Positions 38,706 to 42,051 of a stretch of DNA of 64,000 nt are shown here, one piece after another. The stretch comes from Spiroplasma platyhelix PALS-1 (GTDB lineage: Bacteria; Bacillota_I; Bacilli_A; Mycoplasmatales; VBWQ01). The position numbers and the translations under genes are program-made. The stretch covers positions 186,001 to 250,000 of the forward strand of contig NZ_CP051215.1 in NCBI RefSeq assembly GCF_021496725.1, written 5' to 3'. The number at the start of each line of letters is the position of its first letter. Within the stretch, counting starts at the first letter, position 1. A model generated the notes under the pieces. It did no database searches, was not told where the DNA came from, and saw only the letters and a program-made list of their open reading frames with translations.

Positions 38706-39071
38706 ATGGCACGTACAGGCACTTATACAAAGTGATTAGCAGAAGAAGATTTATATTGTGTTGATAGATTTATTAAAAATTATTTTGAAAAATTAATTAA
38801 ATCTGGTCAACCTGTAAATAGTAAAGCGATGGACTTAGAAGTTTATTTATATAATGAACGTTATAATAAAAAAAGAACAGAAGCAAGTGTTAGATTAAAA
38901 TTTCATAATATAGAACATTTAGCTTTTAAATGAGTGAAAGAAAATGGTAATCCTTATAATGTAAATATAAAAAAAGGTATGTCAAAAAGATCAAAGCAGT
39001 GTTTGAAATTTTGAGAAGCACAAATTGAACAATATTCTAATGAAATAAATAAATGATTAAATAAAAAATAG
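38706..39071 (+). CDS. Small hypothetical protein, unknown
   Basis: 121 residues only when TGA is read as Trp (four TGA codons), so standard-code searches miss it. It is basic and helical, with MARTGTYTKWLAEEDLYCVDRF at the start and a Lys/Asn-rich end. It begins 8 bp after lplA and ends at a terminator, so it is the last gene of the nox-hydrolase-lplA unit. No family recognised. Confidence 0.55.
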
Positions 39072-39092
39072 TCCTATATAGGACTATTTTTT
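39063..39092. terminator. Bidirectional terminator
   Basis: A palindrome at 39067-39088 (core TAGTCCTATATAGGACTA) with A and T runs, between convergent genes. Confidence 0.85.
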
Positions 39093-39093
39093 A

Positions 39094-39663
39094 TTAACCT
39101 GCATTAATTGGCGCAGTGGGTTGAGATTCTTCTAGAGCATCGTAACTGATGATGTAGTACTTCAATCGTAGGTCTCATAGATGCATCACAGGTTGATAGA
39201 GGACGCCTGCGACAACAGCATTGCTGACTCCGTGAACAGCATCGAACAACAGACCATTCAATCAATAAGCAAAGAAAGCACTCTTACCATACATCAGCAG
39301 ATGAAGAAATGCATCTAAGGTACCAAAAGTGAAACCTCATAAGCTATTAAGGACAATAAAGAGTCATCAATGTTTTTTGATTACTTTTTTAAATGATCAG
39401 ATTAAGAGCACTAATAGTGGTCAAGCAATAAAGTATAAGATAACTCAAGTTGCTACTCCTCTTAAGAGAATTTCACATAAATTAAAAATTAGTGGGATAG
39501 AAATGCTAATAGAAAGTGGGAACACTAGAGCTGCAAAAGAAAGTAAGAAAGTCACCACTTCAATATTAGGTAAGATAGCTAGTGCTTCTTTTAGGGCAAA
39601 AACTAGTGCACTATATAAAGCAATAATTAGTAGTCTTAGTAGCTTTTGAACATGTAAACTCAT
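39094..39663 (-). CDS. ECF transporter S component, probably cobalamin-specific
   Basis: 189 residues, about six helices. The start ALVFALKEALAILPNIEVVTFLLSF and the later IAWPLLVLLIWSF and AFFAYWLNGLLFDAVHGVSNAVVAG fit a conserved ECF S-component subfamily. The AdoCbl riboswitch and its terminator lie directly upstream on the same strand, so the substrate is most likely vitamin B12 (inference from regulation). It needs the shared EcfAA'T module encoded elsewhere. GGGAG precedes the ATG. Monocistronic. Confidence 0.78.
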
Positions 39664-39677
39664 TTCTTCTCCCTAAT

Positions 39678-39704
39678 AAAAAAGCACACTAACTTTGAGT
39701 GTGC
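39678..39704 (-). terminator. Riboswitch expression-platform terminator
   Basis: On the minus strand GCACACT / AGTGTGC with a 7-nt loop is followed by U6. It sits between the aptamer and the S-component start, so it is the switchable terminator. Confidence 0.8.
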
Positions 39705-39719
39705 GTGAAAAATCATTAG

Positions 39720-39910
39720 TTTTCTAACTGCACCCAGAGTTGTTTCTTGGTTTATTAATTAAATCGGTCTCCTGACTTAACTTCATTTTACTAGTTAGCC
39801 TTCTCAAAACATTTGTTTCAATGGTTTATCTAACGTTCATCAGTATTACAGTTGCTGGGGCAGTCTTAGAATTGCACTAAATTCCCTAAATATTTAATTA
39901 ATATTAAGTT
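39720..39910 (-). promoter_or_regulatory. Adenosylcobalamin (B12) riboswitch
   Basis: Read on the minus strand, the region carries the family landmarks in order: GGGAA, AGTGCAATTC, GACTGCCCCAGCAACTGTAAT (the aptamer core, plus 39845-39865), and then the B12 box AAGTCAGGAGACC (plus 39765-39777). Binding of the cofactor normally turns the downstream gene off. The match covers several separate conserved blocks, so the call is strong. The pairing of each arm was not folded by computer. Confidence 0.9.
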
Positions 39911-39927
39911 TGTCTTTTTATTATAAA

Positions 39928-40485
39928 TTATTTTTGGTCTTTATTTAATAAATCTACTAATTTATCTTTTTCTAAAGTTAGCATTTCCTTTTGGTACTTA
40001 GTGAATAGTCGTTGGCAGTCATTAATTTCGTTTAGTGCCTGCTTAACATCCATTCATCCTTTAATGACAACTTTTTTATTTTGTAAGGCTTTGTATTGTA
40101 AGAAGAAGTTAGTTATCTCGTCTAATAGATGTTTAGGAACGTCTTTTAAAGTTTGATAGTCTTTGAATCTTGGATCACTCTTAACAACACCAAAGATTTT
40201 TGTATCAATCTCACCATCATCAATCATTTCAATTGCACCAAGAACACGAATTTCAATCAGACATCCAGGAAAAGTAGGATAAGTAATTAATGAGATCACG
40301 TCTAATGGATCACCATCATAATCTAAAGTATTAGGAATGAAGCCGTACTCACCAGGATAGAAATTAGCACCAAATAATGGGCGGTCTAAAATAAAAGTTT
40401 TTCTCTTATTATCAAATTCAAATTTATTTTTGCATCCTTTAGGGATTTCAACAACCATTTCGATTGTTAGTTCATTGTTGGCCAT
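39928..40485 (-). CDS. ppa: Inorganic pyrophosphatase (family I)
   Basis: 185 residues. VEIPKGCKNKFEFD (K-x-N-K-[FY]-E), PGEYGFIPNTLDYDGDPLDVI (E-Y-G, metal-binding D-G-D-P-x-D-V) and LGAIEMIDDGEIDTKI (M-x-D-x-G-x-x-D-x-K-I) match family I. It hydrolyses pyrophosphate in the cytoplasm. AAGGAG lies 12 nt before the ATG, a long gap. A Lys-rich helical C-terminal tail of ~40 residues follows the core. Confidence 0.96.
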
Positions 40486-40593: not shown

Positions 40594-41232
40594 ATGGCCA
40601 AAAAGAAAAATAATTTCAAACAATTTTGAAAAAGACAATGAGCAAAAATTGTTGAGGATTTTCAACTATCAACTCATAAGATTGCTTTAATTGGGATTTT
40701 TCTTGCGTTGACAACTTTAATTAGTTTACTTGAGATTCCAACCTTTTTTAATAGTTTTCTATCGATTGATTTTGCGATCACAATTAATCTGCTAGCAGTT
40801 TTTATTGTGGGTCTACCTTATGGTTTGTTGATTGCGATAATTTTTCCTTGAATTAGGTTAGGGATTCCCCATACAATGCCACCAGATGTGGTTGGTGCAC
40901 TTTCATCAATGTTGAGTGCGATCACTAGTTTGATAGTGTTTTTTGCAGTTCATGATTTGCTGTTGCTGTTAATTAAAGGTAACAGAGATAGTTGAAAACC
41001 ACATTTAGTAGTGAACATCCTTAGTATTATTTTAGCTTGTGTGTTGATTTCTTTATTGAATACTTTTTATAATTGAGCATTTATTTTAGACTTGTATGGT
41101 GCTTCAGAACAAAAGCAAATTTTATGAGTTGTTTACTTGCCATATAATTTACTTAAGTTTAGTTTGGTGCTGATTTTATTCTTGCTACTAGAGAAGCCAT
41201 TAGCAATTTTAAAGCGTCATTTTGACTTATAA
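40594..41232 (+). CDS. ECF transporter S component, substrate unknown
   Basis: 212 residues, read through several TGA Trp codons. A basic N-terminus is followed by about six helices, beginning IALIGIFLALTTLISLLEIPTF and continuing FAITINLLAVFIVGLPYGLLIAIIFPWIRL, the Gly/Pro-containing loop typical of S components. It resembles the riboflavin/folate-type branch only loosely. A related S component follows 87 bp downstream. Confidence 0.65.
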
Positions 41233-41319
41233 GATTTGACTTGCTTTATTTCTTATTTTAATTTATAATTTATATAAATAATTAATTATTAAATGATAAA
41301 TTTTCAGAGAGGTAAGTAT

Positions 41320-42051
41320 ATGGAAAATCAGGTACTTGAAGAAAAAAAATCAACTTCAAAGTTGAAAAATAAGTTCTTTAAGTTTAAGCGTAAAGAAAAA
41401 ATTGAAACTAAAGATCAAATTTTTAAAATTGTTCTGACAGGACTTTTATTAGGTTTGTCAGTAGCATTTTCTTTAATTGAACTTAAAATTCCAATTATGG
41501 GAGCAAGTATCCCGTTAAGAATTTTTGATGCTTTGATCATGGCGATTGCGATTCCAATTATTGGACTTTGATACACGGTTTCAATTGCGATTATTGAACC
41601 TTGATTGCATTTTGCGATTGATAGCGATCATCCACCTATTCAAATGTTTTTTGATAACATCGCCAATGTTGTGTTTGTTATTTCATTTGTTTTAGTATTT
41701 TATAAATTATTTAAATTGAATCAAGTTGATACAACAAATAAGAAAACTTTTATTGCTAAGAATACTTTTGCTGGTCTAGTTTTAGTACCATTAAATGCAA
41801 TTGTTTCATCATTGATGTTTGTCTTTACAATGTTAGTTTTATTGAACACAGGTTCAGCTGAACATGTTGATGTGTTTCATGGTGATCATGAAGGGATATT
41901 TGATGGCGTAACAGCATTTTTTGAAAATGCTTCAGCAATCTTCTTTATCTTACTAGCAATTGAAGTAGCTAGATTCTTATTGATTTATGTGTTGTTTGCT
42001 TTAGTACAAAAGCGATTGTCTCAATTAAATCGTTTTCAAAATAATAATTAA
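41320..42051 (+). CDS. ECF transporter S component, substrate unknown (second of a pair)
   Basis: 243 residues. After a Lys-rich 35-residue N-terminus come helices starting IVLTGLLLGLSVAFSLIELKIPIMGASIPLRIFDALIMAIAIPIIGLWY, close in layout to S components. A hydrophilic His/Asp-rich loop (EHVDVFHGDHEGIFDG, about residues 185-200) is unusual and could sense or bind a metal, as speculation. The start at ATG 41320 follows AGAGAGGTAAGT. Confidence 0.68.

Follow-up and report, generated by a model that had tools for sequence, protein, structure and literature searches.

What would a Mollicute do with a cobalamin riboswitch, and which genes would it govern? A 2009 survey found nickel and cobalt use lost in 88.2% of 17 Mollicutes (PMC2667541), and by our reading of its tables urease accounts for the other two, so that neither would use cobalt. 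We addressed the question for Spiroplasma platyhelix PALS-1, whose assembly consists of one contig of 744,499 bases (93.85% complete, tool estimate). The locus lies in a 64,000-nucleotide stretch of this contig (NZ_CP051215.1, positions 186,001 to 250,000), called the window below; coordinates are window positions unless a prefix is given. A reading made from the letters of this stretch (the sequence-only reading) had proposed an adenosylcobalamin (AdoCbl) riboswitch on the minus strand, followed by a switchable terminator and the start of an ECF S component, and had predicted B12 uptake and at least one B12-dependent enzyme.

The riboswitch aptamer

The cmscan search returned a full-length match to RF00174 at 39912–39745 on the minus strand (77.7 bits, E = 2e-17, model positions 1–189 of 189). 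This is far over the gathering score of 31.5 bits, and by its covariance score the element is a cobalamin riboswitch, of the Cbl-I type. Its ligand is most likely adenosylcobalamin. Both blocks quoted in the sequence-only reading, CCCCAGCAACTGTAA (39860–39846) and AAGTCAGGAGACC, were found within the aptamer in the expected order. The extent it had given, 39678–39910, takes in the terminator as well as the aptamer, which by itself spans 39745–39912. In a genome of the same genus, the S-component ortholog likewise has an orthologous aptamer on its 5′ side, 84% identical to that of the window. The 5′ neighbor, outside the switch, is an inorganic pyrophosphatase gene (39928–40485, minus strand; PF00719, 180 bits). 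A consensus scan upstream of the aptamer found no sigma-70-type promoter.

The S component and its transporter

The S-component start expected behind the terminator was located at 39663, where a 189-aa open reading frame begins (39094–39663, minus strand, code 4). Neither Pfam nor NCBIfam named the product usefully; it scored under the cut-off of Pfam ECF_trnsprt (PF12822; 15.3 vs 30.7 bits), a broad model that does not define CbrT. The name came from the PDB sequence search: as a single sequence, the protein matched chain A of 6FNP (CbrT) with E = 1.8e-8 (phmmer). A profile of 14 members of the S-component family matched 6FNP with E = 1.9e-15 and returned no other solved S component, only one chance-level chain besides. 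The AF2 model (pLDDT 88.5) was submitted to Foldseek, which returned the S components ThiT, HmpT, FolT, RibU, and BioY with probabilities up to 1.00 (ThiT); the best TM scores by query were 0.64–0.65 (4HUQ_S, 7NNT_C), with every E-value at 0.001 or above. These structural matches give the S-component fold for the model and do not tell the substrate. The 6FNP matches and the fold support a CbrT-type S component, with B12 as the putative transport substrate.

The protein might instead import another corrinoid or a B12 precursor, such as cobinamide or a lower-ligand base, so that the switch would report the overall corrinoid state. CbrT binds and transports cobinamide as well (PMC5997447), and the fold is silent on the substrate, as Foldseek returned S components for several vitamins. 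We consider this reading unlikely, since the sequence matches no solved S component other than CbrT, and the sole B12-dependent enzyme found in the genome, NrdJ, requires complete AdoCbl. Cobalamin is the substrate that we favor.

The predicted uptake also calls for an energizing module, and an EcfA–EcfA'–EcfT set was found elsewhere in the genome, with an EcfT of 152.7 bits, two ABC ATPase frames upstream, and truA downstream. The CbrT-like S component would share this ECF module of the cell. In the ECF-CbrT of Lactobacillus delbrueckii (6FNP, PMC5997447), the S component belongs to the same sequence family and also works with a shared ECF module; in contrast to it, the window S component sits behind a cobalamin riboswitch. 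The AATAGTCCTA/TAGGACTATT hairpin with its T-run (39065–39088, minus strand), which lies between convergent genes and is absent from the scanner list, is the probable transcript end. Near the riboswitch gene, the plus strand at 40594–42051 encodes two more S-component-like proteins, one MMSYN1_0877-like and one MPN160-like, both under the NCBIfam cut-offs.

B12-dependent enzymes of the genome

The search for a B12-dependent enzyme yielded a class II ribonucleotide reductase, one of the two candidates that the sequence-only reading had named. Its NrdJ scored 1318 bits with NF005991 (cut-off 854) and 562 bits with TIGR02504 (cut-off 400), and 1XJE, a B12-dependent reductase, aligns with it at the TNPCGE motif and the flanking cysteines. 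The other candidate, epoxyqueuosine reductase, was not borne out: no QueG (PF08331) was found in the genome. MetH and the mutases were rejected as B12 users as well, the genome having no B12-binding domain PF02310. With neither this domain nor QueG found, the families tested yield NrdJ as the sole B12-dependent enzyme. A class III reductase was not found in this genome. An adenosyltransferase of the CobA type is present with an intact frame; the PduO type is absent. Adjoining nrdJ (L035:9532–12072) and divergent to it, a kinase-like frame (L035:8744–9367) resembles the deoxynucleoside kinase encoded in the salvage operons described below.

A second riboswitch ahead of a class Ie reductase

Outside the window, the genome carries a second cobalamin riboswitch (L003:9755–9921; 90.2 bits, model positions 1–189). 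It lies about 150 bp upstream of nrdF, which is followed by an 870-codon frame (L003:11112–13724; C1:646111–648723) that joins NrdI (residues 23–150) and NrdE (168–870) in one 870-aa protein. Genomes of genus g2 have this fusion as well (868–878 aa), but the two genes are separate in G312, which belongs to the same genus as PALS-1. In NrdF, V119, P179, and K213 replace the metal-binding carboxylates, and D88 and Y126 are present (for the class Ie numbering of Asp88, Tyr126, and Lys213, see PMC8902622). Among known structures, class Ie proteins such as 6GP2 and 8BT3 come nearest to this NrdF, and the three substitutions are invariant in all 13 riboswitch-linked NrdF sequences compared. Judged by these residues and gene identities, nrdF and nrdI-nrdE encode a ribonucleotide reductase of class Ie (R2e VPK), predicted to work metal-free.

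The class Ie reductase of Mesoplasma florum (6GP2, PMC11846895) has the same V/P/K at the three metal-ligand positions, the tyrosine of the DOPA site, and the gene order nrdF-I-E. In contrast to M. florum, here a cobalamin riboswitch stands ahead, NrdI is fused to NrdE, and NrdJ is encoded in the genome. A survey of VPK loci lists two without nrdI (PMC11846895), which an NrdI–NrdE fusion might account for.

With the second switch on a class Ie operon, the biology extends beyond uptake alone. Over their whole length, the two riboswitches of the genome (L003:9755–9921 and window 39912–39745) are only 70% identical, yet one stretch of about 60 nt (GATGAACGTTAGAT...AAGGCTAACTAGTAAAATGAAG) is almost the same in both; the pattern suggests local gene conversion.

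Expression platforms and predicted direction of the switch

Inspection of the window copy showed that L5 (GCCCCAG; core CCCCAG at 39855–39860, minus strand) is complementary to CTGGGTGC, the loop of a hairpin immediately 3′ of the aptamer. This P13/L13 hairpin (AACT-CTGGGTGC-AGTT, 39726–39741, minus strand) would be both the kissing partner of L5 and the antiterminator strand. The nrdF copy is built alike: its L5 (TCCCAG) is complementary to L13 CTGGGGGT in the hairpin TATTC-CTGGGGGT-GAATA. L13 loops of the CTGGG type were also found in most relatives whose L5 reads GYCCCAG.

Downstream, at 39704–39684 on the minus strand, the stem-loop GCACACT-CAAAGTT-AGTGTGC is followed by TTTTTT. This intrinsic terminator was the sole site meeting the scanner criteria in 39050–40050, where shuffled sequences gave 0.4, and it is present in the minimum-energy fold of the platform, also with L13 held unpaired. 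When the 3′ arm of the terminator was omitted, L13 was predicted to pair with the 5′ arm in both copies of the genome. The pairing comprises four core pairs in the window copy (GUGC/GCAC) and more in the nrdF copy, and a terminator-like hairpin precedes nrdF, too. The switchable terminator of the sequence-only reading was thereby recovered, with mutually exclusive folds predicted in the expression platform, weaker in the window copy.

With ligand bound, L5 would kiss L13, P13 would hold, and the downstream GCACACT strand would be free to build the terminator. With ligand absent, L13 would pair with the 5′ arm, and the importer would be expressed. The terminator folds when L13 is unpaired, as in the kissing state; therefore, the predicted direction is transcription OFF in the presence of ligand.

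The Shine–Dalgarno-like AGGGAG (39669–39674, minus strand) lies less than 20 nt from the terminator, within possible reach of another stable fold. The platform could then work mainly on translation, by masking this site rather than by premature termination. This is improbable in our view: a stem with a T-run lies ahead of the start codon as the only scanner match against the chance expectation given above, nrdF has its hairpin as well, and the antiterminator pairing is aimed at the terminator arm in both copies. Transcription termination remains the favored mode of control.

Riboswitch targets across the order

To place the two switches of PALS-1 in context, 320 genomes of the order were compared. 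The closest named relatives by S component were Spiroplasma sp. JKS002669 and Spiroplasma sp. AdecLV25b. A riboswitch above the cut-off occurred in 35 genomes and an above-cut-off NrdJ in 36, with both in 22 (Fisher p = 5.5e-16, shared ancestry ignored). Counted by genus, NrdJ overlapped with nine of the ten riboswitch genera (p = 1.7e-5, phylogeny ignored). CobA was found in 35 of the 36 NrdJ genomes (p = 9.9e-35 for NrdJ and adenosyltransferase over the 320 genomes, phylogeny ignored). Thirteen riboswitch genomes had no above-cut-off NrdJ, and 14 NrdJ genomes had no above-cut-off riboswitch, so the coupling is not universal.

Targets were read for 61 riboswitches. Most of the strong ones with a readable target stand ahead of B12-uptake genes or of B12-independent routes to dNTPs. 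The uptake targets were the S component, with or without a DUF4430 protein; surface proteins of a family that we call P394 were targets as well. Among the dNTP routes, the class Ie operon nrdFIE recurred, all 13 NrdF compared being of the VPK type. In G166, the target was the class III pair NrdD and NrdG (609 bits), of which G169 carries what looks like a broken copy. In genus g32, the riboswitches (L063, L067, L071, L076, L081, L084, and L088) precede a salvage operon of purine nucleoside phosphorylase (PNP), deoxynucleoside kinase, a transketolase-like protein, a KDPG-type aldolase, and nucleoside deoxyribosyltransferase, and are kept even in genomes without NrdJ. Deoxynucleoside salvage is thus a candidate new target class of cobalamin riboswitches. 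No recognizable target was found for several of the 61, for example in G306, G307, G309, and G310, and partly in G172.

Genomes missing NrdJ often had a broken P394 (G165, G167, G170) or adenosyltransferase (G170, G306, G307, G309), which fits uptake, adenosyltransferase, and NrdJ behaving as a unit lost together. G319 and G172 were exceptions, retaining NrdJ with uptake genes broken or not found. This decay in relatives, which extends to the S component in G319, would favor the view that the window switch is a neutral vestige in a genome that no longer uses B12. We find that hardly credible for PALS-1, in which the frames of the S component, adenosyltransferase, and NrdJ are intact, both aptamers score far over the threshold, and the L5–L13 complementarity is kept. 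A functional switch remains our reading.

A probable B12 economy for dNTP supply

With the above results in hand, we consider it very probable that the window holds an AdoCbl OFF switch before a CbrT-like S component, and that it is one of two switches in a B12 economy serving dNTP supply. With B12 present, NrdJ would make the dNTPs, its AdoCbl being provided by uptake plus the CobA-type adenosyltransferase, and AdoCbl would close both switches, on uptake and on the class Ie reductase. When B12 is short, uptake and the B12-free, metal-free reductase would both open. The aptamers, terminators, gene identities, and inventory of this model come from the sequence; the ligand, OFF direction, substrate, and active reductase are what we infer. 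The short antiterminator in the window, the lack of a consensus promoter, the S-component score under the Pfam cut-off, and the non-universal coupling speak against it.

The same logic appears in Streptomyces coelicolor, where nrdABS is under a B12 riboswitch in a genome that also has NrdJ, according to the passage of PMC4991794 that cites Borovok 2006. As described there, the cobalamin riboswitch holds down a class I reductase that needs no B12, beside NrdJ. That reductase is a metal-dependent class Ia enzyme of a large-genome actinomycete, whereas the one described here is a metal-free class Ie enzyme in a 744-kb Mollicute; compared with the S. coelicolor case as given in that passage, in relatives of the window genome the same kind of switch also stands before genes for class III reductase or for deoxynucleoside salvage.

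Each of the components is already known. In a limited open-access literature, we found no report of cobalamin riboswitches in Mollicutes and none of cobalamin-riboswitch control of a class Ie reductase or of deoxynucleoside salvage; in the open-access literature, no paper linking Spiroplasma with a class II reductase was found either. One Mollicute lineage still has the means to import, adenosylate, and sense B12, apparently for the single enzyme NrdJ. Within 744 kb it maintains one reductase that depends on B12 and another that requires neither B12 nor metal, and an RNA switch seems to make the choice between them, which offers a testable model for the coexistence of class Ie and class II reductases. 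These findings suggest that host-supplied B12 may shape these host-associated bacteria.

Candidate capture proteins linked to the riboswitches

Loci outside the Mollicutes with the same S-component family had a cobalamin riboswitch upstream in 18 of 20 cases, usually with a gene for a small membrane-anchored protein between switch and S component. DUF4430 was detected at E = 0.01 or better in 18 of the 22 anchored proteins compared (16 from non-Mollicute loci and six from Mollicutes). This is a C-terminal domain of vertebrate transcobalamins (PMC4350170), and the DUF4430 profile gave a weak match (E = 0.007) to one B12-binding protein, transcobalamin-1. The Pfam domain is the same as in the vertebrate proteins, and here it is found beside a B12 S component or in an nrd cluster; in contrast to the transcobalamins, the bacterial protein is single-pass anchored, has about 130–175 aa, and lacks the rest of transcobalamin. 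At L057 and L051, the S component runs on into a C-terminal region that, read by eye, is like the anchored protein; Pfam made no DUF4430 call in these two regions. Related genomes therefore differ from L. delbrueckii ECF-CbrT in pairing the S component with an extracellular DUF4430-type region, apparently fused in two.

P394 (L003:13789–14973 and relatives) is a secreted or anchored family whose genes follow cobalamin riboswitches in several genomes of Spiroplasma. It matched no Pfam family over the cut-off and, with a poor AF2 model (pLDDT 63.7), no known fold. We regard it as a candidate surface B12-capture protein. We lean toward a dedicated regulon in Spiroplasma and its relatives, in which AdoCbl would hold off the B12-free dNTP routes (class Ie, class III, salvage) together with a capture and uptake module that includes DUF4430 proteins and P394. 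At L003:16637–18859, a further frame encodes a 740-aa protein with many near-identical repeats of the MADSITKIEEGQ type.
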